Below, piece after piece: positions 49,701 to 64,000 of a stretch of 64,000 bases of DNA (the stretch's first letter is position 1; each line of letters begins with the position of its first letter). The notes under the pieces are model-generated. The model did not search any database. It was not told the DNA's origin and saw only the letters and a list, made by a program, of their open reading frames with translations. The stretch spans positions 8,122,001 to 8,186,000 of the forward strand of contig NZ_CP107905.1 of NCBI RefSeq assembly GCF_036014015.1, written 5' to 3'. The DNA is from Streptomyces sp. NBC_00457. Its GTDB lineage: Bacteria > Actinomycetota > Actinomycetes > Streptomycetales > Streptomycetaceae. Both the position numbers and the translations under genes were made by a program.

Positions 49701-50516
49701 TCAGTCCTTGAGGCCTGCCACCACCTGGAACGCCGAGTCCCGGCGGTACAGGTCGCTGTGGTCGTACGACTCCAGGCGGACGACGAAGTTCCGGTGGCGG
49801 AGGAAGCGGCCGGGGTAGTTCACGGACTCCAGCATGACCGCGCCGGAGGAGGACGCGGGGCGGGCGCAGAAGGTGGCGTCCTGTTCGAAGAGGCGGGAGC
49901 CGTCGTCGCGTTCGGAGCGCAGGACGAAGTTGCGGTGGCGCAGGTAGCCGCCGTCGGCGGTGGCGAAGGAGTAACAGGACGACTTCGCAAGGCCGTCGAC
50001 CACCTTGAAGGTGGCGTCCTCGGCGGCCGAGGCGGAGGTGATCGGGTCGACGGTCACGTAGTCGTCGGTGGCGTGCCAGTAGCGGTCGGGGTAGTTGACC
50101 GCGCGGACCGACTTCCAGCGGGAGACGGGGGCCGGTGAACTCTCCTCCGGTGCCGTCGGCTTGGACGGCTCGGCGGAGGGCGTGGGCGTGGAGCTGTGCC
50201 GGGGCGGCGCCTTCGTCGTGGGGTCGGGGGAGGACAGGCCGCCCTTGCCCTTGGGGGGAGCCGTCGTACTCGGTGAGGGTGAGCCGAAGGAGATCAGGCC
50301 GGGCAGGGTGGCGTTGACGGGGGTCTGCGGAGTGCCTGACGCTTCGTCAACTTCCCTGTCCGTCATGACGATCGCCGTGACACACGCGGCGACGGTGGCC
50401 ACCGCGAGGGTGCCGGCCAGCCAGAGCCGTCGCGTTCCCGGTATCCGGGAGGTGTCAGGGGCCCAGCCTTTCTCCCAGGGTTGGTTCCGCGGAGGGCGTG
50501 GCGTGGTGTCTGGCAT
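49701..50516 (-). CDS. Membrane-anchored AbfB-domain protein
   Basis: A 271-residue protein: short cytoplasmic N-terminus, one transmembrane segment (LWLAGTLAVATVAACVTAIVM), a Ser/Thr/Pro-rich stalk, and a C-terminal AbfB (arabinofuranosidase-B-type) beta-trefoil. The repeats SVRAVNYPDRYWHATDDYV, GYLRHRNFVLRSE and SVNYPGRFLRHRNFVVRLE show the family pattern. The domain usually binds arabinose-containing polysaccharide; no catalytic module is present. GAAGGA six bases upstream supports ATG 50516. Confidence 0.88.
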   Translation of the reverse strand: MPDTTPRPPRNQPWEKGWAPDTSRIPGTRRLWLAGTLAVATVAACVTAIVMTDREVDEASGTPQTPVNATLPGLISFGSPSPSTTAPPKGKGGLSSPDPTTKAPPRHSSTPTPSAEPSKPTAPEESSPAPVSRWKSVRAVNYPDRYWHATDDYVTVDPITSASAAEDATFKVVDGLAKSSCYSFATADGGYLRHRNFVLRSERDDGSRLFEQDATFCARPASSSGAVMLESVNYPGRFLRHRNFVVRLESYDHSDLYRRDSAFQVVAGLKD

Positions 50517-50674
50517 GCACTGTCCTTCAGCGGCGCCCATGAACGACAGGGCAGGCCGCGGCTGCGAAGACCCGGTATGTGAACGGTGAAACAGTAGTGG
50601 ACCAAGGGGGCCGGGAGCAGCCCTTTTGGAGAGAGCGGTTTCCGCATCCGGGGTCAGCGCAGCCCCACCGGTTA

Positions 50675-50688
50675 TGTACGCTCGTACA
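50675..50688. promoter_or_regulatory. TetR-type operator candidate before the SMR gene
   Basis: TGTACG-CT-CGTACA is a perfect 6-bp-arm inverted repeat ending two bases before the SMR ATG. It overlaps a possible -10, so binding by the TetR protein encoded next would block the operon. Confidence 0.5.
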
Positions 50689-50689
50689 C

Positions 50690-51010
50690 ATGGGATACCT
50701 GACCCTCATCGGCGCCATCGCGGCCGAGGTGGCGGCGACGACCGCCATGAAGTACAGCGACGGCTTCAGCAAGCTCTGGCCGTCCCTTCTGACGTTCCTC
50801 GGCTATGTCGTCTCCTTCACCCTGCTCGCCCAGACCCTCAAGACCGTCGGCATAGGCACGGCCTACGCGATCTGGGCCGGCGTGGGCACCGCGACGATCG
50901 CCGTCCTCGGGCTCTGGCTGTTCGACGAGGCGCTGACCTTCACGAAGGTCGCCGGAATCCTGCTCATCGTGGGCGGCGTGGTGGTACTGAACCTCGGGGG
51001 AGCGCACTGA
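50690..51010 (+). CDS. Small multidrug resistance (SMR) family transporter
   Basis: A 106-residue four-helix protein of the EmrE/SugE class. The essential membrane Glu is in LIGAIAAEVAATTAMK; YAIWAGVGTATIAVLG and the fourth helix ILLIVGGVVVLNLGG are canonical. It exchanges protons for cationic compounds or guanidinium-like substrates. ATG 50690 lies directly after the palindrome with no ribosome site, so leaderless or near-leaderless translation is possible. TetR follows with a one-base overlap. Confidence 0.92.
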   Translation: MGYLTLIGAIAAEVAATTAMKYSDGFSKLWPSLLTFLGYVVSFTLLAQTLKTVGIGTAYAIWAGVGTATIAVLGLWLFDEALTFTKVAGILLIVGGVVVLNLGGAH

Positions 51011-51567
51011 TGGCCAGGCGCTACGACCCCGAACGCCGCCAGCGGATCATCGACGCCGCCATCCGGGTCGTAGGACGCAGTGGTCTCGCCGGACTGACCC
51101 ACCGCACAGTCGCGGCGGAGGCCGACGTACCGCTGGGCTCCACCACGTACCACTTCAAGACCCTGGACGACCTGATGGTCGCCGCCCTCCGCCAGGCCAA
51201 CGAGGGCTTCGCCAAAGTCATCGCCTCACGCGGCGCCCTGGAGAACCCGGACACCGACCTGGCCTCCGAACTCGCCGCCGCGACAGGCGAATGGCTCGCG
51301 GGCGACCGCACCGGCGTGGAGCTGGAGTGCGAGCTCTACCTCGCCGCCCTGCGCCGCCCCGCCCTCCGCCCCGTCGCCGCCGAATGGGTCCAGGACCTGG
51401 CCGACCGCCTCACCCCGCGCACGGACCCGGTCACCGCACGCGCCCTGGTCGCGCTGCTGGACGGCATCTGCCTCCAGGTACTCCTCACCGATGAGACGTA
51501 CGATGAGGAGTACGCCCGCGAGGCATTGGCGCGGATCATTCCCTCTGGCCCGCGCCAAGCCCCTTGA
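51010..51567 (+). CDS. TetR family transcriptional regulator
   Basis: A 185-residue TetR repressor: N-terminal HTH RQRIIDAAIRVVGRSGLAG then LTHRTVAAEADVPLGSTTYHF, with a ligand-binding C-terminal domain. Encoded with the SMR pump (TGATG overlap), which it most likely represses at the operator before that gene. Its last 32 bases overlap the convergent HxlR-peroxiredoxin gene. Confidence 0.93.
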   Translation: MARRYDPERRQRIIDAAIRVVGRSGLAGLTHRTVAAEADVPLGSTTYHFKTLDDLMVAALRQANEGFAKVIASRGALENPDTDLASELAAATGEWLAGDRTGVELECELYLAALRRPALRPVAAEWVQDLADRLTPRTDPVTARALVALLDGICLQVLLTDETYDEEYAREALARIIPSGPRQAP

Positions 51568-52429
51568 CGACGGCCAGCGCCGCCGTCACGCTCCCCGCGA
51601 CATCGGTGACCGGGTACTGCACGTCCCGGACGACCCGCTCCCGGTCGACGACCAGTGTGAGCCGCTTCAGCCGGTCCGCCCCCGCCGCCCGGAACGTCGG
51701 CAACCGCAACCCCGCGACCAGGGCCAGTCCGGAGTCCGACAGCAACGGAAACCCCAGCCGCTCCTTCTCCGCGAACGCCCGCTGCTCGTCCGGACGTTGA
51801 GTGGACACCCCGTGCACACTCGCCCCCGCAGCGCGGAACTCACCGAGCCGGTCCCGGTACGTACAGGACTCCAGAGTGCAGCCCGGCGCACCGGGAATCT
51901 CCGACCACCCGGGCGGATAGGAGTCGGCGCGCGCATAGGCCCCCGGGAAGCAGTACAGAACGGTGAACGGACTCTCCGCCACAACGGGATCGAGCAACTC
52001 CCCGCCGTCATCGACGAGGTGCAGCTCGGGAACCCGCGTGCCCGTCAACTCGTGCACCCGCCGCGCCTCGACGGACGCCTCCGCCGCCGTGGCCGTCGTG
52101 CTCCCGTCCCCCAGAACCCAGGCATCTCCCCAGTCCTGAAGGGCGACGAGTACGGGCAACAGGGCAAGGCCGCGCGGGGTGAGCCGGTACTCGTACCGCA
52201 CAGGGCGCTCCTGATAGGGCACCCGAACCAGCACATCGGCCTCCACCAGAAGCCGCAACCGCTCGGTCAACACCTTTCTGGACAGCCCTAGTTCACGCTG
52301 CAGCTCGTCGAACCGGTGCACTCCGCGCGCGGTGTCCCGCACGATCAGCAGGGTCCACCAGTCGCCGACGACGTCCAGGGCCTGCGCGATGGCGCAGGTG
52401 GAGTCCTCCAGGCGAGTCCTGCGCGCCAT
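51536..52429 (-). CDS. HxlR-type regulator fused to a PrxQ-like peroxiredoxin
   Basis: A 297-residue two-domain protein. Residues 1-105 are an HxlR winged helix (CAIAQALDVVGDWWTLLIVRD, FDELQRELGLSRKVLTERL, VRYEYRLTPRGLALLPVL). Residues about 130-297 are a peroxiredoxin of the PrxQ/BCP type with peroxidatic and resolving Cys five residues apart in GCTLESCTYRDRL, then FPLLSDSGLALVAGLRLP. The fusion suggests a transcription factor that reads peroxide through its own thiol domain. It is divergent from an MFS gene, with a perfect operator-like palindrome between. Confidence 0.88.
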   Translation of the reverse strand: MARRTRLEDSTCAIAQALDVVGDWWTLLIVRDTARGVHRFDELQRELGLSRKVLTERLRLLVEADVLVRVPYQERPVRYEYRLTPRGLALLPVLVALQDWGDAWVLGDGSTTATAAEASVEARRVHELTGTRVPELHLVDDGGELLDPVVAESPFTVLYCFPGAYARADSYPPGWSEIPGAPGCTLESCTYRDRLGEFRAAGASVHGVSTQRPDEQRAFAEKERLGFPLLSDSGLALVAGLRLPTFRAAGADRLKRLTLVVDRERVVRDVQYPVTDVAGSVTAALAVVKGLGAGQRE

Positions 52430-52520
52430 GGCCGTACGTCCCTTCCGCCACCGATCGCCGGTCGGTCGCCGGTCGGTCGTCGTTCGATCGTCGTTGACCC
52501 GAGGCTGTCATGCTGACACA

Positions 52521-52543
52521 GTGAGTTCCCAAAAGGAACTCAC
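52521..52543. promoter_or_regulatory. Perfect palindrome between HxlR-Prx and MFS genes
   Basis: GTGAGTTCC-CAAAA-GGAACTCAC, 9-bp perfect arms, lies 11 bases before the MFS start and 92 bases before the regulator start. Position and symmetry fit a dimeric HxlR operator acting on both divergent promoters. Confidence 0.7.
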
Positions 52544-52554
52544 TGGGGGGATGC

Positions 52555-53766
52555 GTGCTCAAGGACGTACCGAGAACTGTCTGGCTACTGGCCTGCGGCA
52601 CCTTCGCCAACATGGCCGTGAGCGTGAGCTTCGCCTACCTCTTCCTCTACCTCACCGGGCCCCGGGGCCTCGACACGGCAGAGGCCGGCCTGCTCAGCGG
52701 GGTCGGGGGCATCGGTCTGCTCGCGGGCAACTTCACCGGCGGCTGGTACGGCGACCGCTTCGGCCACCGCCGCGTGCTGCTGACCGGAGCCGTCACATCC
52801 GGCCTGCTCCTGGCCGCCGTCCCCCTCCTCCCGACACCGGCCCTGTACGCCGCACTGCCCCTGTGCCAGTACGCCGCGGGTGTCCAGCGGGCGGCCAACT
52901 CGGCGCTCGTGGCCGTCATCGTGCCGGAGGGGTCCCGTCGCCAGGCCTTCGCCGTCGTACGGGCGGCGGCGAACGGCGGCTTCACCGTCGGCCCTCTGCT
53001 CGGCGCGGTGGTCGCGACCAGGTTCTCGTACGACTGGCTCTACGTCGCCGAAGGCCTGGGCAGCCTGACGCTGGCCTGCTGGACGGCTCGAGTGGTCCCA
53101 CCGCGAGGCGCCGCACGGTCCCCCGGCGGTACCGGCCGGGTCTGGCCGGAACTGCGCGCACGCCCGGCCGTACTGATCCTCCTCGCGGCGATCCTGGTCA
53201 CCGACGTGGTCTACCGGCAGCAGTACTCCACCTACCCGCTCTTCCTCGCCGACCACGGCATGGACACGCGCACCTACGGGGCACTGCTCGCGATCAACGG
53301 CGCCGTGCTGCTGTGCCTGGAGCTGCCCGCGGCGCTGGCGCTGCGGCGACGGTCGCCGCTGCGGATCGTCGGCACCGGCCTGTTGCTCGTGGCCGCGGGA
53401 TACGGCGTGCTGCTGCTGGGCGCGGGCCTGGTGACGGCGGTGACCATGATGACCCTCCTGACCCTCGGCGAACTGCTCTACAAGACAACGGCGACGGCTT
53501 ATGTGGCCGACCAGGCTCCCGAGCACGTCCAGGGCCGCTTCCAGTCCCTCTACGCCGGAGTGTCCATGAGCGGCACGGTCCTGGCGGCACCCCTGGGCGG
53601 AGCGCTGTACGAGAGGGCGCCCGGGATGCTCTGGCCCGTGTGCGCGGGACTCGGCGCGGTGGCCGCCATGGCCGTACTGACGGCAGCCACAGGCCGACGG
53701 GCACCCACGGCCACCCCCACCGGCTGTCTGGCACCCACGGGCCACCCCCACCGGCCCGCCACCTGA
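52555..53766 (+). CDS. MFS transporter
   Basis: A 403-residue transporter with about 12 hydrophobic spans. The loop GGWYGDRFGHRRVLLTG after TM2 is a good MFS motif A, and early helices (WLLACGTFANMAVSVSFAYLFLY) are typical of drug or metabolite exporters. GTG 52555 follows GGGGGG. It is probably controlled by the HxlR-Prx fusion. The last 25 residues (ATGRRAPTATPTGCLAPTG...) are encoded by a short DNA repeat and look like a recent extension. Confidence 0.9.
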   Translation: MLKDVPRTVWLLACGTFANMAVSVSFAYLFLYLTGPRGLDTAEAGLLSGVGGIGLLAGNFTGGWYGDRFGHRRVLLTGAVTSGLLLAAVPLLPTPALYAALPLCQYAAGVQRAANSALVAVIVPEGSRRQAFAVVRAAANGGFTVGPLLGAVVATRFSYDWLYVAEGLGSLTLACWTARVVPPRGAARSPGGTGRVWPELRARPAVLILLAAILVTDVVYRQQYSTYPLFLADHGMDTRTYGALLAINGAVLLCLELPAALALRRRSPLRIVGTGLLLVAAGYGVLLLGAGLVTAVTMMTLLTLGELLYKTTATAYVADQAPEHVQGRFQSLYAGVSMSGTVLAAPLGGALYERAPGMLWPVCAGLGAVAAMAVLTAATGRRAPTATPTGCLAPTGHPHRPAT

Positions 53767-53783
53767 GACGCCACCCCCACCGG
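53700..53783 (+). repeat. Short tandem repeat across the MFS 3' end
   Basis: GCCACCCCCACCGG occurs at 53710-53723, 53741-53754 and 53770-53783; GGCACCCACGG precedes the first two. The period is about 30 bp. It alters the protein C-terminus and runs into the spacer before dapD. Confidence 0.7.
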
Positions 53784-53820
53784 TTGGCCCACCCCACCCC
53801 CCGCCGGTTAGGTTGCCCTC

Positions 53821-54816
53821 ATGACCGACACGACTGCACCCAGCACCACCACCGGCGGAGCCGTTGCCGCCGGCCTCGCCACGATCGCCGCCGACGGCAC
53901 CGTCCTCGACACCTGGTTCCCCGCGCCGGAGCTCTCCGCCGAGCCCGGCCCGTCCGGCACCGAGCGGCTGTCCACCGAGCGGGCCGTGGAACTGCTCGGC
54001 GAAGGCGCCGCGAAGGCGATCGGCCCGGACGCCCGCCGTGGCGTAGAGGTGGTAGCGGTCCGTACGGTCATCGCGTCGCTCGCCGAGAAGCCGACCGACG
54101 CGCACGACGTCTACCTCCGCCTGCACCTCCTCTCCCACCGCCTGGTCAAGCCGCACGGCCAGAGCCTGGACGGCATGTTCGGCTTCCTCGCCAACGTCGC
54201 CTGGACCTCGCTCGGACCGGTCGCCGTCGACGACATCGAGAAGGTGCGGCTGAACGCCCGCGCCGAGGGCCTCCACCTGGCCGTGCCGTCCGTCGACAAG
54301 TTCCCGCGCATGACGGACTACGTGGCCCCCAAGGGCGTCCGCATCGCCGACGCCGACCGCGTCCGCCTGGGCGCGCACCTCGCCGAGGGCACGACGGTCA
54401 TGCACGAGGGCTTCGTCAACTTCAACGCGGGCACCCTCGGCACGTCGATGGTCGAGGGCCGCATCTCCGCTGGCGTCGTCGTCGGTGACGGCTCGGACAT
54501 CGGCGGCGGCGCCTCCACGATGGGCACCCTGTCCGGCGGCGGCAACGTGATCATCTCCATCGGCGAGCGCTGCCTCATCGGCGCCGAGGCGGGCGTCGGC
54601 ATCCCGCTCGGCGACGAGTGCGTGGTCGAGGCAGGCCTCTACGTCACCGCCGGCACCCGCGTCACCATGCCCGACGGCCAGATCATCAAGGCCCGCGAAC
54701 TCTCCGGCGCCTCCAACATCCTCTTCCGCCGCAACTCGATCACCGGCACGGTGGAGGCCCGGCCGAACAACGCGGTGTGGGGCGGGCTGAACGAGATCCT
54801 GCACAGCCACAACTGA
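53821..54816 (+). CDS. dapD: Tetrahydrodipicolinate N-succinyltransferase
   Basis: Succinylates tetrahydrodipicolinate in the lysine / diaminopimelate pathway. The 331-residue actinobacterial-type enzyme has an N-terminal alpha/beta domain, then a left-handed beta-helix of hexapeptide repeats ([55 protein letters not shown]), ending [18 protein letters not shown]. dapA for the same pathway lies at 60909-61805, beyond the accessory segment. Confidence 0.96.
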
Positions 54817-54821
54817 TGGGG

Positions 54822-54844
54822 GGCGGCCGTGACTGGCGGCCGCC
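54822..54844. terminator. Hairpin after dapD
   Basis: GGCGGCCG (54822-54829) and CGGCCGCC (54837-54844) with a 7-base loop, six bases after the stop. Confidence 0.6.
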
Positions 54845-54872
54845 TGGACGATCGGTGTCCTGATCTGCTGGT

Positions 54873-54899
54873 GAGCTGGCGGCAGTTGTCGGCGTTGGC
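54873..54899. repeat. Left copy of the 27-bp direct repeat flanking the accessory segment
   Basis: This 27-mer begins GAGCTGGCGG and contains CAGTTGTCGGCGTT at 54883-54896. It matches 59945-59971 at 23 of 27 bases, same orientation, 5072 bp apart. An old attachment-site duplication or two copies of a common spacer sequence are both possible. Confidence 0.5.
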
Positions 54900-54971
54900 C
54901 ATTGTTGAGCGCCCTTCTGCGGCCTGAGGACGGCCCGGGAGGGCGTTCCGGCATAGAGAGCGCTAGCGCTT

Positions 54972-55012
54972 CGCGAAGTCCGCCGCGCAGACAGCTCGCG
55001 GCGGACTTCGCG
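54972..55012. terminator. Strong symmetrical hairpin before the nuclease-NTPase gene
   Basis: Perfect 16-bp arms (54972-54987 and 54997-55012; CGCGAAGTCCGCCGCG and complement) with a 9-base loop. It isolates the accessory gene from dapD read-through. The spacer 54817-55078 holds no gene beyond the hairpins and the repeat. Confidence 0.65.
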
Positions 55013-55078
55013 TATCTCTGGGTGAACTGTCCCGGTGTCAGTCCATAATGCGAGGAACGCTAAGCGGGGACGGGAGTT

Positions 55079-57334
55079 ATGGAGAACTTCGATCTAACCA
55101 GGCTAACGGATTTCGATTTCGAGGCTGTCTGCAAGGACATATTCGAGGCGGAGTATAGGGTAAGGCTAGAAATATTCTCGCCTGGTGCCGATTCTGGAGT
55201 CGATCTCCGCTATCTCCATGCAGGCGGCACTCACCTAGTCGTCCAATGTAAGCACTGGGTTCGCTCGCCACGCTCAAAACTAATAGAGCGCATTAAGAAT
55301 TCCGAGCTCACGAAAGTGCAAAGACTGCAACCGGATAGATATATCCTAGCCACTTCCGTAGAGTTGACGAAGGGCGCCAAGGATAAGATATACAATATCC
55401 TGTCACCATACGTGAAAACGCCGAGTGACATCTACGGCATCACGGAAATAAATGCTCTGCTTCGCAAACATGAAAGTGTTGTCAGGCGTCATGTGCGCCT
55501 ATGGTTGACCAGTGCTTCGGTCTTGTCTGCACTACTTTCTAAAAGCGTTTTGACGCGCTCTCAGCAACTTGCAGAAGAGTTGGATTCCACGCTTCGAACA
55601 TATGCGCCTAATGAGAGCTACGGCAGGGCTGTGGACCTTCTGGAGACGCGGCACACGTGCGTCATAGCAGGGATTCCCGGGATCGGTAAGACAACTTTGG
55701 CGCAAGTTCTCTGTGCTGGATATGTGAGCGAAGGCTATGAGCTAGTCGAGGTATCTGCGGATCTTGAGGAAGCGAACTCTCTCTGGGACGACAAAGTTGC
55801 GCAGATCTACTACTATGACGATTTTCTAGGGCAGACAACTCTAGAAGAAAAGCTCGGAAAGAACGAAGACAGCCGCCTTCTTGCCTTTATGGACAGGATT
55901 GAAAAGTCTCGTAACAAGCGGTTTATTCTCACGACGCGTGAGTACATCCTCGCTCAGGCGCGCCAGCGATACGAAAAGCTCCATAGGCACCGCTTCGATC
56001 TGCAGACCTGTGTTGTTGATATGGCGGATTACACGTACCGTGCCAGAGGAACCATTCTCTACAATCACGTCTATGCGTCCGGGCTCAGTGATGACATAAA
56101 GTCAAACTTTGCGGATCCTGCAGTATATCGGCCAATTATTCAGCATCAGAACTTCAACCCCCGGGTGGTGGCAGCGACAATTGCCGAAGCGGATAGCTTC
56201 CCGTCCGCTGGCGAGGATATTGGGAGACGCATCCTGGAGAATCTTAGAGACCCTCGAAGCGTGTGGTCTCATATAGTGAGTCATCAGCTGAAAGACCCTG
56301 ACGTTCAACTTCTGGCGCTCACCTACTCGTTTATGGGCGGCGTTTACTTGGGGGATATGCAAGATCTCTGGGTTTCCCTGGAGCGAAGTTCAAGAGATCT
56401 GCGAACCTCTCTCGCGACGCTTGACGGGACGATGCTAAGAACTTATCGAAAATCCGATAGGATCTTCCTGGCCTTCCATAACCCGTCAGTTCGTGACTTC
56501 ATGCGAGAATACCTCCTTGAGGATCGCTCGAATTTCCTCCAGCTCATCAAGTGCTTCTCTCATTTTGAGCAGATCGAGGCTCTCTTGGTGATGGCTAATG
56601 AGCAAGAAGAAGTTCTTCAGTTCTTCAAGCGGAATTTGAAGATCGTCGAAAACGTAGCGTTGAAGGCGTTTGACTCACAGGGCCTCCGTGGTGATGGTGT
56701 GAATGCGAGCACCGATCCAGCGCAACGTGCGAGGGTGTATCTACACCTTGGTGAAGCCCTCGCATCTGAACCGATCCTAGAGTGTGCGCGAAAGGCGATC
56801 GTTGAAGACGAAGCCATTTTGGAAGCATACGATCCGCAGGATGTTATCGACATTATTCAGTTTTTGAACGAGTCGGATCGGGAGTCATTGCGTCGCGCCC
56901 TCCCGGACGCTGTCGATATGGCGATTGAATGGATCACAGGAGATCTGTCGTCCTGGGACTTGATGGAATCCGCTAAAGGCTTCCTTGAGAATGTCTCCGA
57001 TATTGTTCCGAAATCGGCAATTCTAGACGTCGAGGAGGATATGCAGAGATATGCTGAGGGTGCGATTGCGGCATGGGCTGAGATGGGGCCTGACTCGATG
57101 ATTGATCATTCGGTAATGGAAGGGGTTTTGGCTTTCGCGAATGAATATGAGGATCCGGAACGAACTTTCCCCGGCTACGGTGAAGCCGTAGATAAGATTC
57201 CGGACCTTGATGAGGACGGGGGTGATTACAGCAGGCGTGAGCTATCAGGCTCTGATTCCACGGAAAGCTATATTCAGGAGATGAGAGATGTTGCAGACAT
57301 GATGGGTTCGCTTCGGGCTGATGATTTAGGTTGA
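55079..57334 (+). CDS. Mrr-like nuclease fused to nSTAND3-type NTPase (candidate anti-phage protein)
   Basis: A 751-residue three-part protein. Residues 10-115 resemble a restriction-endonuclease (Mrr_cat-like) PD-(D/E)xK domain: FDFEAVCKDIF, Asp42 in SGVDLRY and Gln56-x-Lys58 in LVVQCKHW. DIYGITEINALLRKH and RRHVRLWL link to a STAND NTPase with Walker A GIPGIGKTT (198-206) and RFILTTREYILAQA, the phrase typical of nSTAND3 domains. The helical C-terminal third is unassigned and probably the sensor. STAND-nuclease proteins are known anti-phage architectures; for this gene that is inference. Codons such as AGA, ATA, CTA and many A/T third positions differ from all neighbours, indicating transfer. 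The only TTA codon is 750 of 751. Confidence 0.85.
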   Translation: MENFDLTRLTDFDFEAVCKDIFEAEYRVRLEIFSPGADSGVDLRYLHAGGTHLVVQCKHWVRSPRSKLIERIKNSELTKVQRLQPDRYILATSVELTKGAKDKIYNILSPYVKTPSDIYGITEINALLRKHESVVRRHVRLWLTSASVLSALLSKSVLTRSQQLAEELDSTLRTYAPNESYGRAVDLLETRHTCVIAGIPGIGKTTLAQVLCAGYVSEGYELVEVSADLEEANSLWDDKVAQIYYYDDFLGQTTLEEKLGKNEDSRLLAFMDRIEKSRNKRFILTTREYILAQARQRYEKLHRHRFDLQTCVVDMADYTYRARGTILYNHVYASGLSDDIKSNFADPAVYRPIIQHQNFNPRVVAATIAEADSFPSAGEDIGRRILENLRDPRSVWSHIVSHQLKDPDVQLLALTYSFMGGVYLGDMQDLWVSLERSSRDLRTSLATLDGTMLRTYRKSDRIFLAFHNPSVRDFMREYLLEDRSNFLQLIKCFSHFEQIEALLVMANEQEEVLQFFKRNLKIVENVALKAFDSQGLRGDGVNASTDPAQRARVYLHLGEALASEPILECARKAIVEDEAILEAYDPQDVIDIIQFLNESDRESLRRALPDAVDMAIEWITGDLSSWDLMESAKGFLENVSDIVPKSAILDVEEDMQRYAEGAIAAWAEMGPDSMIDHSVMEGVLAFANEYEDPERTFPGYGEAVDKIPDLDEDGGDYSRRELSGSDSTESYIQEMRDVADMMGSLRADDLG

Positions 57335-57440
57335 CGCGACCTGCTGCAGCGCTGGTAGGCGGAACGGCTTTGGGCTGGAGCTGCTTTGGAGCGAGTGATC
57401 ATGGCCCCGTAAGGCAGGTCGCGCCGCAGGGGCGGCGCGC

Positions 57441-57459
57441 GCCCGCGCCGTGCGCGGGC
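57441..57459. terminator. Hairpins downstream of the nuclease-NTPase gene
   Basis: GCCCGCGC-CGT-GCGCGGGC (57441-57459) follows a second hairpin GCGCCGC-AGGG-GCGGCGC (57421-57438). The spacer 57335-57625 shows no convincing gene on either strand; these hairpins probably end the nuclease-NTPase transcript. Confidence 0.5.
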
Positions 57460-57625
57460 CTTGATGGATGTAGGGAAATTCTGACCGCAAGGAACTCTTG
57501 CCGGGTGCACAGTCGGCTGCTCCCATGCGTTTGGGGATGACACGCACTTGGGGGCGAGCGAGCCCGGCAGCGATGCTGTGACTAGCGTGCCGCCACACCA
57601 CCGGAGGCAGGGAAGCCCGGCCGGG

Positions 57626-57859
57626 CTACTCAACGGGCTCAAGCTTGGCCGAAGTTCCCATGGCCTCGGCTATGCGCTCGGCTGCGGCCGCGCGGATCAT
57701 GCCCAGGTGTACGTACGGCTTGCCGTTGTGGGTCACCATCGGCCGCACACTGCTCCACACGCTTTCGGGGAGGCTGAGACCGGCCAGGGCCGCTCGGATC
57801 GCCTCCGCTGCGTCTGTGGCCTGCGTGCGGCGATCCCGGTAGGTCTGCATGTCCATCAT
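57626..57859 (-). CDS. Small hypothetical protein (77 aa)
   Basis: Begins MMDMQTYRDRRTQATDAAEA and continues IRAALAGLSLPESVWSSVRP and THNGKPYVHLGMIRAAAAERI. Soluble, mixed helix, no known domain. It overlaps the gene at 57856-58065 by four bases (ATGA), so the two are co-translated. Such short proteins accompany DUF5753 HTH regulators in Streptomyces. The role is unknown. Confidence 0.7.
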   Translation of the reverse strand: MMDMQTYRDRRTQATDAAEAIRAALAGLSLPESVWSSVRPMVTHNGKPYVHLGMIRAAAAERIAEAMGTSAKLEPVE

Positions 57860-58065
57860 TGGTGAACCCCGGAACTGTGGTCCCTGATCTCTGTGGCGTG
57901 CCTCGCGGCCCTTGTGATGTTCCCGTCGTCCTTGGCGGTGTTGAGCTGTTTCCAGTTGGCGGTGCAGACTTCGCAGCCCGGTGCGGGTGCACAGTCCAGC
58001 AACCAGGCGTTGAAGCCGGTCGGCAGCTCTACGGGGCAGGGGTCGGGATACGTCTGTTGCCTCAT
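57856..58065 (-). CDS. Small hypothetical protein (69 aa), Cys-containing
   Basis: Begins MRQQTYPDPCPVELPTGFNA, with WLLDCAPAPGCEVCTANWKQL containing C-x5-C-x2-C that could bind metal. It sits 63 bases downstream of the broken HTH gene and overlaps the 77-aa gene. Function unknown; the C-terminal part (AKDDGNITRAARHATEIRDH) is charged and helical. Confidence 0.7.
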   Translation of the reverse strand: MRQQTYPDPCPVELPTGFNAWLLDCAPAPGCEVCTANWKQLNTAKDDGNITRAARHATEIRDHSSGVHQ

Positions 58066-58128
58066 AAGTCCCAGGCTGGGCGCGGCAGTGACCTTGGGTC
58101 CATGAACTTGTACGGACTTGCGGGGCGG

Positions 58129-58971
58129 TTACCGAAGGGCATTGATCGCGGTGGTGATGAGTGAACGGGCCTGGGCTCCGTACACGGCGAGCGTGGACAG
58201 TTCGGCGAACGCCTTCGCGTACTCGGCTATCTCGCCGGGCTGCGTGACGGTCAGGTGTGCGGAGACGAGTTCCACGTTGACCTGTGCGTCGTCGTACATG
58301 GTGAATGACTCAACAGGCCATCCGGCGCCACGCGGAGTGCCGAGGGGAATGATGCCGAGGCTGACCGAGGGCAGCGAGGCGACAGAGATGAGGTGGCCCA
58401 GCGCCCCGGCCATGGTGTCGTTGTCGCCGATGACCGTGCGCAGCACCCACTCCTCGACGAGCATCGCGAATCGATGGTCGCCGGAGTGGAGGATTCGCTG
58501 CCGCTCCATCCGCACGGCGACGGCGTCCTCGATGTCGTCCGGTACGTCGCGGAGGTGGGCCACGGTGCTTAGCACGGCACGTGTGTACGCGGCCGACTGG
58601 AGCAGGCCGGGGATCACCCAGGACTGGTAGGCACGGAAGCGGCGCGTGCGCTCGAACAGCGGCGCCACGGACTGCTGGACGTGCGTCAGGCCCGCCCGCT
58701 CCATTCGACGCCACTGGACGTAGGCACCCTCGATGCCTCGTGCTGTGGCGATCAGGTCGGCGGTCTGGTGCTGGGCAGCGCAGAGTGTCGTGTAGGTCCG
58801 GATATCGGTATCCGACGGGGGTGTGCGCCCGTTCTCAAGTCGCGAGCACTTCGACTCGTGCCAGCCCGCCCGATGGGCAAGTTCACGCGCTGTCAGGCCA
58901 GCGTCCTTGCGGATCTCGCGAAGACGCTAACCGAGGGCCTGCCGTGCTTGCTGAACGCTTGATGAGGTCAC
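58129..58971 (-). pseudogene. HTH (XRE)-DUF5753 regulator interrupted by an amber codon
   Basis: The full frame runs from GTG 58971 to 58129 (281 codons) and would give the usual XRE HTH plus DUF5753 regulator. Codon 15 is TAG (58927-58929). Before it the frame reads MTSSSVQQARQALG; after it RLREIRKDAGLTAREL, WHESKCSRLENGRTPP and the DUF5753 domain (FRAYQSWVIPGLLQSAAYTRA, LPSVSLGIIPLGTPRGAG). The family usually has Gln or Ala there, so CAG to TAG is the simplest change. The first ATG after the stop (58704) is past the HTH. DUF5753 regulators pair with small partner proteins and are linked to development or toxin-antitoxin-like control. Confidence 0.75.
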
Positions 58972-58987
58972 GCTGGGCACTTGTGGA

Positions 58988-59509
58988 TCAGGTGAGCCGG
59001 TAGTCCGCGTGCGGCACAGCCAGGTCCCACACGGCCTCGAACGCGTCCGCGCAGAGCTTCACGACGGCCGGGTCGTCGGTGTACTCCTCGTCGTCCGGGG
59101 CGAGTTCGCCATCGCCGGCGAAGTAGTGGAAAAGCACGGAGCTGCCGTCGAAGAGCCAGAAGTCATTGCCGGGCAGTGCCAGCCGGGATGTGCGACGGCG
59201 CGGTAGCCAACGCACTTGTTCGCCCGCCTCTACGCTGGGGCCCGTCAGGTGGTGCTCGAAACGGATGTAGTCCGACACCGGCTCCGACACGATGCGCGCC
59301 CTGCGGACGTCAACTCCCTGGCCCACGAGGTCGGCGACGAGCCGCAGCCACGGCCGACGCTCCGGATCGCTGTCAGCCGGGTCGTTGCGGACACCGTTGC
59401 GCCAGGCGATGAACCGGGGGTCGGAGCGCATGTACTCGTCGCGCATCTCCAGATGGACGGCGGAACGGGTGCAGTGGCGCAGCCGGTCCTCAAGCGTCGG
59501 CACCGCCAC
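58988..59509 (-). CDS. DUF6879 family protein
   Basis: A 173-residue protein with the DUF6879 pattern: AVHLEMRDEYMRSDPRFIAW near the start, RRARIVSEPVSDYIRFEHHL, EQVRWLPRRRTSRLALPGND, and FWLFDGSSVLFHYFAGDGE. This family commonly lies beside HTH-DUF5753 regulators, as here (16 bases upstream of the broken HTH gene). Biochemical role unknown; partner or effector of the regulator is inferred from context. Overlaps the upstream 75-aa gene by 20 bases. Confidence 0.85.
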   Translation of the reverse strand: MAVPTLEDRLRHCTRSAVHLEMRDEYMRSDPRFIAWRNGVRNDPADSDPERRPWLRLVADLVGQGVDVRRARIVSEPVSDYIRFEHHLTGPSVEAGEQVRWLPRRRTSRLALPGNDFWLFDGSSVLFHYFAGDGELAPDDEEYTDDPAVVKLCADAFEAVWDLAVPHADYRLT

Positions 59510-59717
59510 CGCCGTTCACCTCCGGGAAGAACTGCACCATGCGCTTCGGGATCTCGATCACGTCCTCGTGGCCGGGAAGGTCCAGCTGCCTACGACGGGT
59601 CTCGTCTACCACCTTCCAGCCCTGCACGAGATAAGTGCCCTTCTCATCGTCCAGGTAGATGGTGGGCGACTTGCCGTCGGGGCTCTCCGGGTCCTGGCCG
59701 AGTTTGATCAGAGCCAT
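59490..59717 (-). CDS. Small hypothetical protein (75 aa) of the DUF6879 cluster
   Basis: Begins MALIKLGQDPESPDGKSPTI and has YLDDEKGTYLVQGWKVVDET and GHEDVIEIPKRMVQFFPEV. It resembles the small acidic proteins that precede DUF6879 genes in Streptomyces. The ATG at 59717 has GAGGAGA about 5 bases upstream. First gene of the minus-strand cluster. Confidence 0.8.
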   Translation of the reverse strand: MALIKLGQDPESPDGKSPTIYLDDEKGTYLVQGWKVVDETRRRQLDLPGHEDVIEIPKRMVQFFPEVNGGGGADA

Positions 59718-59780
59718 CGCTGTCTCCTCGCGTCGTCGGAGCATCCGTGCCCGATCTTGCGCCCAATGCCACGTGGAGGC

Positions 59781-59806
59781 CAGGAACTTGCAGGAACTTG
59801 CGCAAG
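59781..59806. promoter_or_regulatory. Tandem 10-mer and palindrome upstream of the DUF6879 cluster
   Basis: CAGGAACTTG occurs twice in tandem (59781-59800) and runs into the palindrome CTTGCGCAAG (59797-59806), about 65 bases before the 75-aa start. It may be an operator for an HTH-DUF5753 type regulator. The spacer 59718-60001 holds no convincing gene. Confidence 0.4.
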
Positions 59807-59944
59807 GAGAGCGACCTACGCCGACATCGTCTGGCTGCGCTCCTGGTCAGTCGCCTGTCGGACCAGGCACGTCGACGGGCCAGCAACTCGCGGAAGGGCT
59901 GCCGTGGTGTGCAGCCGCCTACTCGATCAAGGTTCTGACGTGCT

Positions 59945-59971
59945 GAGCTATCGACAGTTGTCGGCGTTAGC
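59945..59971. repeat. Right copy of the 27-bp direct repeat
   Basis: Partner of 54873-54899 (23/27 identical), with CAGTTGTCGGCGTT at 59955-59968. It lies upstream of the DUF6879 cluster, at the point where core-like genes resume. Confidence 0.5.
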
Positions 59972-60001
59972 AGTTCGACCGGTTGATCGTTCCGGCCATG
60001 G

Positions 60002-60358
60002 TCAGCTCTGTCGGTGGGACTCTTCCAGGGGGTCTTCGGAGGGTTCTTTCAGGAAGTCTGGGGTGAACCAGTCACGGGACGACCGGGGCACGGAGAGCAA
60101 AAGGATCATCGTGATCCCGCCATAGACCACGAATCCCTGCACGATTGCCACGACCCTGGCTCCACGGTTGCCTTGCCACAGGCCTAGGGCTGTCATGCCA
60201 GGTAGGAACCCCAGAAGGACGAACAAGAGTATGGCTGGGTCGCCCTTTGCCAGGGCTCCGACCACACTCACGAGGAGAAGGAAGACGGCCGGCAGGGCCC
60301 AGAGCACAACCGCTGCGATGACCGGTGCGGGTGGTCTCTTTTTCTCGGCTACGGACAC
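60002..60358 (-). CDS. Small membrane protein, hypothetical (118 aa)
   Basis: Begins VSVAEKKRPPAPVIAAVVLW and has three hydrophobic spans (AVVLWALPAVFLLLVSVV, ILLFVLLGFLPGMTALGL, GARVVAIVQGFVVYGGITM), ending in a charged tail (FTPDFLKEPSEDPLEES). GTG 60358 is chosen because the codons upstream are Arg/Cys-rich and unlike protein. No family recognised. Confidence 0.7.
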   Translation of the reverse strand: MSVAEKKRPPAPVIAAVVLWALPAVFLLLVSVVGALAKGDPAILLFVLLGFLPGMTALGLWQGNRGARVVAIVQGFVVYGGITMILLLSVPRSSRDWFTPDFLKEPSEDPLEESHRQS

Positions 60359-60591
60359 CCGACGGAAGGTATCGGCACAGGCGCGGGACCGGTCCCGGAT
60401 CGCGTTTTGCGGTCTCCGGACGAATCCGACGACACCCACAACTGCACCCACCCGTACGGGTACACACCCCGCCCTCGCAGCGCACGATCGGGTTACCTCA
60501 CGTGACCTGATCAAGGTTTAGGCAGATGAACGGGTGGACGCAGCGTCCGATCAACTGCCGAACCGCGTATCACGTAACAAGGGACTGAGCG

Positions 60592-60816
60592 ATGACGAAC
60601 GAGCGGGCGAGGACCGTGGCACGGCTGCTGACCGGGGCGGTCACCGCGGTGATGGTGTGCTGGCTCCCGGCGGGTGCCGCGCACGCCGACGAGACCAACA
60701 CGGCCTCGCACAACGGCCCCCGGGTTGGCTTGATCAACGTCGGCCAGGTGGACGACCCGATGGAGGACGTACTGGAGCACTTCCTGCTGTTCGGCGACGG
60801 GTACCGCTGGGGCTGA
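60592..60816 (+). CDS. Small secreted protein (74 aa), hypothetical
   Basis: A signal peptide (MTNERARTVARLLTGAVTAV to AAHA, about residues 1-32) precedes a 42-residue mature part: DETNTASHNGPRVGLINVGQ then VDDPMEDVLEHFLLFGDGY. The Gly-Leu-Ile-Asn and acidic helix pattern looks conserved, but no function is known to me. A terminator follows, shared with dapA on the other strand. Confidence 0.8.
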   Translation: MTNERARTVARLLTGAVTAVMVCWLPAGAAHADETNTASHNGPRVGLINVGQVDDPMEDVLEHFLLFGDGYRWG

Positions 60817-60856
60817 GAGCGGTACTACCAACCCGTAGCTGGTCCGTGCCCGTACC

Positions 60857-60902
60857 AGGCCCGGGGGCCGTGCCGCAGCCATGCGGAACGGCCCCCGGGC
60901 CT
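60857..60902. terminator. Bidirectional terminator with T-tract
   Basis: AGGCCCGGGGGCCGT (60857-60871) pairs perfectly with 60888-60902 around a 16-base loop, followed by TTTCGCTT on the plus strand; between the small secreted protein gene and dapA. Confidence 0.85.
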
Positions 60903-60908
60903 TTCGCT

Positions 60909-61805
60909 TCAGCCCGTAGCCATGAACTCCTCGTACGTCGCCAGCAGTCCGTCGACCGCCTCCCGGCCAGCGCGCCGCAGTGGGGCGCGGACCGGGCCCG
61001 CGGGCAGGCCCAGTTCGCTGAGCAGGGCCTTCGTCGTGACCGTGCCGGGCAGGCCGGCCGACATCATCAACTCGATGAGGGGAGTGGCCCGTTGCTGGAG
61101 GCGGGCCGCCTCCGTCGTGTTTCCGGCGTCGAACGCGTCGAGGACGGAGCGGAGTTGGCGGGGGACCACGTTGGCGACCGTGCTGATGTAGCCCGTCGCG
61201 CCCACCGCGTAGAGGGCGAGGTTGTGCTCGTCGCAGCCGGCGTAGTACGCCAAGTCGGTGCGAGAGAGGACCTTTTGGGTGCCGAGGAAGTCGTACGAGC
61301 AGTCCTTCACTGCCACGACTCGGGGGTGCTCGGCCAGTCGGATCACGGTGTCCGGCTCGATGCGGGTGCCGGTGCGGCCGGGGATGTCGTACAGGACGAC
61401 CGGCAGTCCGGCGGCGTCGGCCACATCGCGGAAGTGGGCCTCTACGGCGTCCTGCGGGGGCTTGCTGTAGTACGGGGCTACGACCAACAGGCCGTCCGCG
61501 CCTGCCTTTTCGGCCTCCAGTGCGAGTTCGACCGTGTGCCGGGTGTCGAAGGTGCCGACGCCCGCCACGATGGACGCCCGGTCGCCGACCGCCTCCCGGA
61601 CAGCCGCGACGAGCGCCGACTTCTCGGCGTCCGTGGTGGTCGGGGACTCGCCCGTCGTACCGGAGAGCACCAGTCCGTCGCAGCCCTCCGACACCAGCCG
61701 CTCGGCGAGCCGCTGCGCGCCGTCGAGGTCGAGCGCGCCCTCCTCGGTGAAGGGCGTGATCATGGCGCAGAGGGCACGGCCGAAGGGGGAGCCGGAAGTC
61801 GTCAT
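60909..61805 (-). CDS. dapA: 4-hydroxy-tetrahydrodipicolinate synthase
   Basis: Condenses pyruvate with aspartate semialdehyde in the lysine pathway. The 298-residue TIM barrel has LVLSGTTGESPTTTDAEK, the Tyr of the proton relay in VLYDIPGRTGTRIEP, and the Schiff-base Lys in VVAVKDCSYDF. ATG 61805 gives MTTSGSPFGRALCAMITPF, the usual N-terminus. Relatives in the DHDPS superfamily have other aldolase roles, but the active-site set fits DapA. Confidence 0.92.
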   Translation of the reverse strand: MTTSGSPFGRALCAMITPFTEEGALDLDGAQRLAERLVSEGCDGLVLSGTTGESPTTTDAEKSALVAAVREAVGDRASIVAGVGTFDTRHTVELALEAEKAGADGLLVVAPYYSKPPQDAVEAHFRDVADAAGLPVVLYDIPGRTGTRIEPDTVIRLAEHPRVVAVKDCSYDFLGTQKVLSRTDLAYYAGCDEHNLALYAVGATGYISTVANVVPRQLRSVLDAFDAGNTTEAARLQQRATPLIELMMSAGLPGTVTTKALLSELGLPAGPVRAPLRRAGREAVDGLLATYEEFMATG

Positions 61806-61990
61806 GGCAGTAGTCTCGGCAGGGCGATCGCGTAGCTCCACTTAATTCTGCTACGAGGTATGGGTAAGGGTTGCTGCGACAACGGGGGGACGGCGCGCGC
61901 ACGATCGTCCCGAGGCCCTATGTCCAAGCCCGCCCCTCATGGGTCACCATGGCCCAGACGGTCAACCGACGGCAGGTCATGGGAGGCGTC

Positions 61991-62125
61991 ATGAAGCTCG
62001 GCAAGGCACTTGCCACCGGAGTCGCGGAAGAGCGGCCGGTCAGTCACGAGGAAGAACTCGAACTTCCCGAAGAGATCACGGAAGTCGAGGCGTCCACGCC
62101 CGAAGAGGTGCCGGTCGCCCGATGA
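61991..62125 (+). CDS. Small acidic peptide (44 aa)
   Basis: MKLGKALATGVAEERPVSHE then EELELPEEITEVEASTPEEV. GGGAGG lies 4-9 bases upstream of ATG 61991, and the stop overlaps the next ATG by ATGA, which supports real translation. Very acidic after residue 12. Function unknown; it may assist the Cys-rich protein encoded next. Confidence 0.6.
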   Translation: MKLGKALATGVAEERPVSHEEELELPEEITEVEASTPEEVPVAR

Positions 62126-62799
62126 GGCTGCGGCTTCCGGAGGAACGCCCGACGGAGCCGCCGACCGGATACAAGATCGCCCACCCGATGCTGTCCCAGG
62201 ACGGCACCCGGGCCGGGTTCACCGGTGTGTCGCTGGGCGGCGCGCTGCCGTACGGGGTTCTCGACGAGGCCCAGTGCGTCTACGGACTGCGGCACCGCGC
62301 GCCGCACCGCCGCTGCGACTGCGGTTTCCACTGCGTGCATGACCGTACGGCGGCCGAGGCGCTCCTCACCACCGCCGAGCACCGCGCGGCCGTGCTGCTC
62401 GAAGTCTCCGTCCTGGGCGCCTACATCCGGTTCGAGCGCGGTTTCCGGTACGCCCGGCAGCGGGTGCGCACCGCGACCGTCGGACCCTGCGCGTGCGGCG
62501 CCGTCGCGGCGGCCCTCGCCGACGCCGGCTGGGGCAGGCCCGGCTGGTACGCGCTGGCCCCCTCCTGCGGGGGCTGCGTGCGCGGTCGTACGTCCGTGTC
62601 GCTCGCCGGGTTCGCGCGGCTGGCGGGGGAGGGGGTGCGGGTGATCGCGGGGAGCGGCGGTACGGCGATCTCGGCGGCCGGTCTCGATGTGCCCGAACTC
62701 GTCGCGGAGGCGGCCCTGTTGCAGGCCCGCCTCGACTGGTTCCAGACCCAGCTGGCCCGGCTCGGCGAGCGCGGGACCGGCGGTGGCGGGAGGGGGTAG
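62122..62799 (+). CDS. Cys-rich hypothetical protein (225 aa)
   Basis: Starts MRLRLPEERPTEPPTGYKIA. Cys/His clusters HRRCDCGFHCVH, VGPCACGAVAA and APSCGGCVRGR suggest a metal-binding fold. There is no signal peptide or membrane span, and the C-terminal third is helical (LVAEAALLQARLDWFQTQL). ATG 62122 is set by the ATGA overlap with the 44-aa gene. No family recognised. Confidence 0.75.
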   Translation: MRLRLPEERPTEPPTGYKIAHPMLSQDGTRAGFTGVSLGGALPYGVLDEAQCVYGLRHRAPHRRCDCGFHCVHDRTAAEALLTTAEHRAAVLLEVSVLGAYIRFERGFRYARQRVRTATVGPCACGAVAAALADAGWGRPGWYALAPSCGGCVRGRTSVSLAGFARLAGEGVRVIAGSGGTAISAAGLDVPELVAEAALLQARLDWFQTQLARLGERGTGGGGRG

Positions 62800-62864
62800 C
62801 GGGGGCAGGTGCGGGTACCCGGATGTTCCGAAGAGGCAGGGCACCACCCGGGAAAGGCACCACG

Positions 62865-63224
62865 ATGACGCACAGGACAGCGCCGGAGGTCACGGGCGGC
62901 GGGGCCAAGGGCCCCGACGAACTGCGGCAGCAGCTCGAACACGCCAGGGGCCGACTCGGCCGTACCGTCGAGGAGTTGGCCGACAAGGCCCACCTGAAGA
63001 CCCGCGCCGCCGACCTCAAGGACAAGGCCGGCGCGATGACCGTGCAGTTGCGCAGCAGCGCCACCAAGGCCGGCCACACCGTGGAGCACAACGTCCCGCG
63101 TCCCGTCGCGAACGTCGTCCAGGCCGGCCTGCGGCACCCCCGGCCGGTCGTCGTCGCCGGCGCCGCCGCGGGCGCGGTGGTCGCGGCGGGCCTGCTGCGG
63201 CGCCGCCACAACGGCCACCACTGA
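62865..63224 (+). CDS. DUF3618 domain-containing protein
   Basis: A 119-residue protein: GPDELRQQLEHARGRLGRTV then EELADKAHLKTRAADLKDKA form the DUF3618 helical segment, and a C-terminal hydrophobic span (PVVVAGAAAGAVVAAGLL) precedes RRRHNGHH. Likely membrane-associated; related proteins occur with phage-holin-3-like and DUF1269 proteins. GGAAAGG precedes ATG 62865. Confidence 0.85.
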   Translation: MTHRTAPEVTGGGAKGPDELRQQLEHARGRLGRTVEELADKAHLKTRAADLKDKAGAMTVQLRSSATKAGHTVEHNVPRPVANVVQAGLRHPRPVVVAGAAAGAVVAAGLLRRRHNGHH

Positions 63225-63375
63225 GCCGCGTCGCGTCAGCTCCGGTCTTCCGTCGCGGGGCCGCCACGACGGCCACCACTTAGCTGCGCCGGTCAGCTTC
63301 GGTCGTCCGCCGCGGCGCCGCTGCAACGGTCACCTCTGAGCCGCCTCGCATCAGCTCCGGTCGTCCGCCGCGGGA
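63203..63375. repeat. Triplicated junction of two convergent 3' ends
   Basis: Three units of 57-58 bp carry both the DUF3618 end (ACGGCCACCACTGAG-like, at 63211, 63269 and 63326) and the ABM end (TCAGCTCCGGTCGTCCG-like, at 63236, 63293 and 63351). The first unit supplies the true DUF3618 stop and the third the true stop of the opposite gene. Confidence 0.7.
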
Positions 63376-63704
63376 AGTCCCACTCCGCCGAGGACAGTGA
63401 GATCCGTGCGCTGCGGTGGCGACGACAGCAGCGCGAGGACGTCCGCGGGGGCCGGAGCACCGGCGGTCGGCGGCGCGGCGAGTGCCGCCTGCGCATCGGA
63501 CTCGTCCCGCCAGACCTCGGTTACATGCACCGTGTCCGGATCGGCCGAGTCCCGGCTGATCAGATAGATCTCACAGCCCGGGAAGCCGTGCAGTCCCTCC
63601 GCGACCCTCAGCAGGAGCGCGGCGAGTTCCTCGCCCTTGCCCGGGTGCGCGGTCATGGTCATCAGTCGGCCGATCATGCCCGCGGATGTGCTTCGCGTGT
63701 TCAT
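63351..63704 (-). CDS. Antibiotic biosynthesis monooxygenase (ABM) domain protein
   Basis: About 117 residues with the ABM dimeric ferredoxin-like fold: MIGRLMTMTAHPGKGEELAA, LHGFPGCEIYLISRDSADPD, and VHVTEVWRDESDAQAAL. Such proteins oxidise or degrade small aromatic or quinone-like compounds, or heme, without added cofactors. ATG 63704 is taken; ATG 63677 (MIGRLMTM) is possible. A SoxR-type dyad lies upstream, shared with the divergent gene. Confidence 0.85.
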   Translation of the reverse strand: MNTRSTSAGMIGRLMTMTAHPGKGEELAALLLRVAEGLHGFPGCEIYLISRDSADPDTVHVTEVWRDESDAQAALAAPPTAGAPAPADVLALLSSPPQRTDLTVLGGVGLPAADDRS

Positions 63705-63740
63705 GGAAGAGAAGGTAATGCGCGGGCGGAATCGGCTTGA

Positions 63741-63758
63741 CCTGAACCTTGGTTGAGG
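63741..63758. promoter_or_regulatory. SoxR-box-like dyad between divergent monooxygenase genes
   Basis: CCTGAA-CCTTGG-TTGAGG matches the SoxR pattern CCTCAA-N6-TTGAGG with one mismatch. Longer arms GACCTGAACC and GGTTGAGGTC extend it. TTGACC at 63737-63742 may be a MerR-family -35 read toward 63806. Confidence 0.6.
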
Positions 63759-63805
63759 TCGGAGGGTGGTCGGTACAGGCATCGCCCAGCGATCAGGAGA
63801 CCGAC

Positions 63806-64000
63806 ATGACCCGCCGTACCGACGCCCACCCCGACCTCACCCGCCCGGAGGTCGGCGCGCCCTTCTTCAGTACCTGGCGGGTGGGGACGCCCGAGCGGCA
63901 GAAGCAGACCGTCGAGGCGATCGCGGCCACATGGGAACGCCGTCCGTGGCCCGCCTCTGACCTGCTCGGGTACCACATCTACACCGGGCACGACGGCACA
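63806..64000 (+). CDS. ABM-domain monooxygenase-like protein (3' end outside window)
   Basis: An open frame from ATG 63806 (AGGAGA six bases upstream) to the window end. It encodes MTRRTDAHPDLTRPEVGAPF then FSTWRVGTPERQKQTVEAIA and SDLLGYHIYTGHDGT. The pattern of a short strand, helix, then GYHIYTGHDGT resembles antibiotic-biosynthesis-monooxygenase domains. Divergent from the ABM gene at 63351 with the SoxR-like box between. I recall a SoxR-controlled monooxygenase in this part of the S. coelicolor genome, which this may correspond to. Confidence 0.7.
   Translation, partial: MTRRTDAHPDLTRPEVGAPFFSTWRVGTPERQKQTVEAIAATWERRPWPASDLLGYHIYTGHDGT

Follow-up and report, generated by a model that had tools for sequence, protein, structure and literature searches.

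A Single Gene Joining an Mrr-Type Nuclease to an nSTAND3 NTPase in Streptomyces sp. NBC_00457: A Probable NLR-Type Phage Defence Receptor

Introduction

Here we describe a gene in the chromosome of Streptomyces sp. NBC_00457, located in a stretch of 64,000 nucleotides (contig NZ_CP107905.1, positions 8,122,001 to 8,186,000) which we call the window and to which all coordinates refer. The gene product combines an N-terminal Mrr-type nuclease domain, a central nSTAND3 nucleoside triphosphatase (NTPase) and a helical C-terminal third, and we consider it probable that it is a single-gene immune receptor of the STAND/NLR type which employs the nuclease as its effector and serves in phage defence. 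An earlier note on this DNA had proposed the same three parts and likened them to the Avs proteins, an architecture that is supported by Pfam, AlphaFold and Foldseek.

Locus and Domain Architecture

The gene is an intact open reading frame (ORF) with an ATG start and 751 codons plus a stop codon (Table 1), and is present as a single copy in the 10.8-Mb chromosome. It is flanked by dapD (53821-54816, +) and dapA (60909-61841, -). Its guanine-plus-cytosine (GC) content amounts to 0.508 (50.8%) overall and to 0.50-0.52 in windowed analysis within the gene, as against 0.70-0.75 across dapD upstream and 0.62-0.71 in the downstream DNA, and the values at the three codon positions (0.59/0.38/0.55) are a coding pattern. 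The earlier note was right about the coordinates, the named residues (D42, Q56-C57-K58, K204 and T285-T286-R287-E288-Y289) and a base composition foreign to its surroundings of 62-75% GC. Its placement of the gene between dapD and dapA holds for the flanks, yet the gene is separated from dapA by roughly 3.6 kb of DNA, in which several small ORFs lie, including those of a DUF5753 protein and a DUF6879 protein. A search of positions 50000-64000 for transfer RNA genes found none, and promoter and terminator scans gave no signal exceeding shuffled sequences. The neighbours of the gene in the window were scanned with Pfam, and two or three of them also with NCBIfam.

Table 1. Features of the gene and its upstream flank (window coordinates; domain roles are predicted).
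Feature	Position	Strand	Basis
Whole gene, Mrr nuclease - nSTAND3 NTPase - helical C-terminus	55079..57334	+	ORF list, GC drop, Pfam, PADLOC PDC-S73, homologue search
Mrr-type PD-(D/E)xK nuclease, putative effector, residues 1-143	55079..55507	+	Mrr_cat, model layout, D42/Q56/K58 invariance
Putative catalytic motif D42 ... Q56-C57-K58	55202..55252	+	Alignment; likeness to Mrr family
Linker, residues 144-178, long helix 146-174 between effector and NTPase	55508..55612	+	Model secondary structure
nSTAND3 P-loop nucleotide-binding domain, residues 179-315	55613..56023	+	PF20720 match, model
Walker A GIPGIGKT, residues 198-205 (K204)	55670..55693	+	G198, G203, K204 invariant in 93/93
Putative Walker B-like D247-D248	55817..55822	+	Invariant in 93/93
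TTREY sensor-1-like phrase, residues 285-289	55931..55945	+	T285 92/93, T286 91/93, R287 93/93, E288 84/93
Helical domain, residues 316-402	56024..56284	+	Model; VIA matches
Winged-helix-like domain, residues 403-482, conserved HNPS...D at 467-473	56285..56524	+	Model strands E453-458, E461-466; name inferred from NLR matches
Alpha-helical solenoid, presumed sensor, residues 483-751	56525..57331	+	Model, low conservation
Inverted repeat immediately 5' of the gene, candidate terminator	54965..55019	.	Arms 23 nt, 87% complementary, 9-nt gap

The N-terminal domain belongs to Mrr_cat by its score and its active site, an assignment by profile and motif without a separate structural comparison of this domain: The Pfam profile (PF04471) matches residues 8-103 with 31.9 bits (cut-off 21; E 1.6e-7), and the D..QxK residues D42, Q56 and K58 are identical in all 93 sequences (query included) of an alignment drawn from the best 120 among 3610 homologues, a list that begins with the query itself and from which fragments and near-duplicates were excluded. 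Mrr_N was absent among the Pfam matches at E ≤ 0.1. The AlphaFold model lays the nuclease out as an alternation of helices (H) and strands (E), namely H11-26, E42-46, E52-58, H65-83, E87-92 and H98-108. Residues 1-182 (55079-55624) additionally match the PADLOC models Aga_TIR and Aga_REase-TIR (1.4e-38 over 3-182, and 4e-28), which suggests that the same effector module may also serve other systems.

The central part is assigned to nSTAND3 (PF20720), which matches residues 175-332 with 173.7 bits (gathering cut-off 27.2; E 2.9e-51), and its P-loop is intact. The TTREY phrase resembles the TTR motif of NB-ARC domains. Constancy in the 93 aligned sequences extends to P361, R362, P469 and S470. 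In the AlphaFold model, whose mean predicted local distance difference test score (pLDDT) is 87, the core is NLR-like. Chains of NLR proteins and of CED-4 are matched by VIA over approximately residues 158-524, and the Foldseek matches include SAMD9, Avs4, Avs5 and Apaf-1. A search of a library of viral structures returned four matches at E ≤ 0.001. The strongest (E 2.6e-6) is to a predicted protein from a siphovirus, annotated as NLR-like, and the other three are of the ATPase type or uncharacterised.

The C-terminal part of the model consists entirely of helices (mean pLDDT 91), and no Pfam repeat family scored above its cut-off in this third. It is here that the homologues differ most: The median identity to the query is 0.56 in the nuclease and 0.60 in the NTPase, as against 0.21 in residues 491-700, and eight relatives at 65-86% overall identity show the same gradient. 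That the C-terminal third diverges fastest is as expected of a sensor, which we presume the solenoid to be by analogy. A profile of the core matches all 37 proteins of the loci examined (that of L017 by a short stretch only). A profile of the C-terminus of the query's group, in turn, scores strongly in close relatives, whereas in many other proteins its match is incomplete, doubtful or missing. Its alignments with L001 (full-sequence E 7.7e-4) and L003 (3.3e-11) are weak but span almost the entire profile; in 6 of the 37 proteins it gives nothing at E ≤ 10, and weak matches are numerous among its 31 rows. We read this as one family with a fast-evolving last third rather than as swapped domains, although a swap may have occurred in the homologues without a C-terminal match.

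Taken against the earlier note, these results sustain the STAND P-loop NTPase with its TTREYIL phrase (K204 and R287 being constant in 93 of 93 sequences) and the helical C-terminal third devoid of recognised repeats. The nuclease, for which the note had proposed a check of residues 1-120, is confirmed by profile and motif, while its boundary is not, the model placing the end of the domain at about residue 143. Among the outcomes that the note had named as speaking against it are the lack of a PD-(D/E)xK fold or P-loop and homologues solely in housekeeping contexts, and neither came about: Both domains were matched, and defence genes lie near the non-actinobacterial homologues.

Family and Distribution

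The view that the gene represents an undescribed type is not supported, as PADLOC already lists the family as PDC-S73 and published work describes STAND proteins whose effector is Mrr_cat (PMC9122126, as excerpted). The kind is therefore known, and the family is already catalogued as a defence candidate, 'PDC' denoting a phage defence candidate according to the excerpted text of PMC11514479. A literature search did not find the name PDC-S73; the family could be published under another name. In PADLOC-DB v2.0.0 the profile PDC-S73 (PDLC05079) matches residues 1-519 of the gene product over its positions 1-527 of 752 (E 1.1e-147, 491.9 bits). The match covers nuclease and NTPase, and the profile of 752 positions is almost exactly as long as the product of 751 amino acids; the alignment, however, ends near residue 520. 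All ten further homologues scanned match PDC-S73 as well, four of them (L001, L008, L009 and L013) over nearly the whole profile (L001: 1-750), the other six (L067, L069, L074, L081, L085 and L010) over about the first 510-530 positions. Judged by these alignments, the C-terminal third of the gene product is more probably a diverged version of that of PDC-S73 than a replacement of it.

Relatives of the gene are widespread and unevenly scattered. The homologue search returned 3610 of 7995 scored candidates at E ≤ 0.001, and among the matches listed are Bacteroidota, Pseudomonadota, Bacillota, Helicobacter, Prevotella, Rhizobium and others. Within the genus, a match is contained in 22 of 392 genomes (the own genome included, and some matches being distant), and in 11 of 150 genomes of relatives, again counting the own. 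Relatives occur on 54 of 72,556 plasmid records versus 2 of 50,697 phage records, and four loci in IMG/VR encode them. Moreover, the GC content of the gene lies below the mean of its neighbours in all 20 same-class loci (L067-L086), in 12 of them by at least 10 points. The spread is patchy and apparently horizontal.

The surroundings of two plasmid-borne homologues were also noted. On a plasmid of Streptomyces laculatispora (L102, 2138-18272), the homologue is found near genes with CHAT and HEPN domains and a set comprising a TnsA-like protein and a Mu-type transposase, as if it were carried by a Tn7-like element. On the Prosthecochloris plasmid pPAES01 (L103, 6550-9482), it adjoins genes whose annotation is that of a diversity-generating retroelement, with Avd, an RNA-directed DNA polymerase and formylglycine-type proteins.

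Proposed Mechanism and Alternatives

We propose the following course of events: As long as the cell is at rest, the protein would be kept inactive by its NTPase core (residues 179-482). The solenoid would then bind a product of the invader, most likely a phage protein, upon which the NTPase would exchange its nucleotide and the protein would oligomerise. Oligomerisation would bring the Mrr-type nuclease domains together, leading to cleavage of DNA, that of the phage and probably also that of the host; this cleavage would end the infection, and the infected cell would die. Phage-protein sensing, oligomerisation, DNA cleavage and the abortive outcome are what we infer by analogy with Avs proteins. 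What the sequences themselves show is the arrangement in three parts, the conservation of active-site and P-loop residues, the rapid divergence of the C-terminus, the patchy spread and the defence neighbourhoods, which are found mainly outside Actinobacteria.

Avs4 bears an Mrr-type nuclease, a pairing of terms that a literature search found in no paper, and Foldseek matches the model of the gene product to its structure 8dgf (E 1.4e-7); the chains of 8dgf, however, comprise 1534-1541 residues, whereas the gene product is half as long. The order of effector, STAND NTPase and C-terminal helical part within one protein is that of the AVAST/Avs architecture, sensing presumably falling to the C-terminus. 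It is shared in particular with the nuclease-bearing Avs proteins (AVAST types 1-4), which are composed of an N-terminal nuclease, a central STAND NTPase and a C-terminal sensor, and the nuclease effectors of Avs1-4 act on phage and host genomes after sensing of terminase, portal or Ksap1 (PMC12931631, in its excerpted text). The same excerpts describe Avs5 as a SIR2-nSTAND3-repeat protein (PMC12931631), so that the NTPase family PF20720 is common to both; the size is likewise similar (833 residues in the EfAvs5 chain, Foldseek E 3.2e-7), but a SIR2 NADase is the effector there and an Mrr nuclease in the gene product. No Avs model is among the seven PADLOC families that match at E ≤ 1, in a library whose coverage of every Avs type was left unchecked. 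In proteins described from P4-satellite hotspots, a STAND NTPase is likewise followed by C-terminal repeats and preceded by a nuclease, of which Mrr_cat is one example; the likeness is one of stated architecture, and the excerpted passage does not name nSTAND3 (PMC9122126). Additionally, Mrr-like nucleases are named among the effectors of conflict systems in the excerpts of PMC7159879.

The neighbourhoods of the homologues bear on the proposed defence role in two different ways. Around 16 loci (15 non-actinobacterial ones and L013 of Lentzea), a PADLOC scan of 127 neighbours at 1e-15 gave matches to 219 families, among them type I restriction-modification, AriA, GajA/Old, HamA, PD-T7-5 and PDC-S06, to which a Pfam scan adds McrBC and integrases; 118 control genes from 11 of these genomes match 13 families, mostly generic, with AriA and a DpdF-like family also present. 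In the same-class loci L067-L084, 138 neighbours match 124 families versus 35 in 133 controls. The commonest families there (25 were listed), however, are identical generic ones in neighbours and controls, and part of the remainder are single-member methyltransferase models. The defence signal is therefore clear around the first 16 loci, whereas around the same-class loci it is weak. The enrichment in defence genes for which the earlier note proposed a test is accordingly found outside Actinobacteria (219 versus 13 families), while there is little of it near actinobacterial homologues. These tallies count families, not genes, and the neighbour genes come from a home-made caller, some being missing or false. 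The first set took all 127 neighbours (L017 excluded) and the control sets all 133 and all 118, whereas the same-class set used 138 of 164, omitting all 16 of L085 and L086 and ten mostly short ones, the longest being L083:14658-18233. Several domain names of neighbours, and the phyla of the named loci, were assigned by eye or from general taxonomy.

Type IV restriction enzymes of the Mrr kind carry an Mrr_N DNA-binding domain beside Mrr_cat, and with its Mrr_cat domain and D..QxK motif the gene product could also be a nucleotide-controlled enzyme of this type, in which the Mrr domain itself recognises and cuts modified foreign DNA, the STAND part does no more than regulate or load it, and the trigger is DNA, incoming plasmids included, instead of a phage protein. 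Many public records indeed label homologues as 'restriction endonuclease'. We nevertheless regard this as unlikely: Mrr_N is not among the Pfam matches at E ≤ 0.1, the nuclease shares its chain with a switch of NLR-like build, and the variability sits in the C-terminal solenoid behind the NLR-like core, not in the nuclease. The same sensor-to-nuclease logic might instead serve to exclude mobile elements, be they plasmids or conjugative elements, in place of phages, to which idea both the plasmid and phage counts given above and a pSAM2-like integrative element in the dapD-dapA interval of one relative lend some weight. Being plasmid-borne, however, says nothing on what is excluded, anti-phage families are found among the neighbours outside Actinobacteria, and the closest experimentally studied architectures, those of Avs, sense phage proteins (PMC12931631, as excerpted); we judge plasmid exclusion to be very unlikely.

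The scant defence enrichment around actinobacterial homologues would also suit a switch without any part in defence that governs development or programmed cell death in a multicellular actinomycete, and in the excerpts of PMC7159879 conflict systems mainly of multicellular prokaryotes are described, with use of the term 'STAND NTPase'. Such a switch is hard to reconcile with the patchy occurrence in the genus, the foreign GC content, the presence of homologues in such taxa as Helicobacter, Prevotella and Rhizobium, and the absence of the gene from the dapD region of the 15 relatives inspected, all of which leave it highly improbable. Within the preferred reading of a phage-defence receptor, it is conceivable, though we would rather doubt it, that the sensor in this gene's branch has diverged so far from that of PDC-S73 that its class of trigger differs (e.g. 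a protein of Streptomyces phages that is neither terminase nor portal), which would make it a separate Avs-like type with an Mrr-nSTAND3 core and about 750 residues.

If the proposed mechanism is true, the gene encodes a compact bacterial NLR-like receptor which holds effector, switch and sensor within 750 amino acids and is akin to the immune receptors of plants and animals. With an effector-switch core that is conserved across several phyla and a sensor that evolves fast, it would offer a simple system for studying how sensor divergence determines phage specificity, as well as a candidate defence gene for Streptomyces-type hosts.

The dapD-dapA Interval

The position between dapD and dapA is not a trait of the family. 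In 12 of the 15 relatives inspected, the 9.5-kb stretch after dapD includes dapA; the gene is absent from this stretch in all 15, and homologues are located far from dapD in three genomes (G063, G009 and G040), a fourth (G017) being too fragmented to place its homologue. A housekeeping role deduced from the dapD/dapA context was therefore rejected.

The interval rather looks like a recurrent insertion site, of which the gene is one cargo. A segment of about 125 bp (54822-54945) recurs downstream of dapD in five of nine inspected loci and elsewhere in four (L088, L139 and L130-L138 examined; dapA of L139 is presumed by eye), and a second, diverged copy (72% identity) lies at 59896-59971 of the window. 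In G009, the interval holds the pSAM2-like integrative element, with RepSA (4.9e-149), FtsK, HTH_17 and a putative integrase. In the window itself, the small genes at 57626-60514 (-), among them those of the DUF5753 protein, in which no helix-turn-helix domain was matched by Pfam, and of the DUF6879 protein, are perhaps remnants of another insertion.
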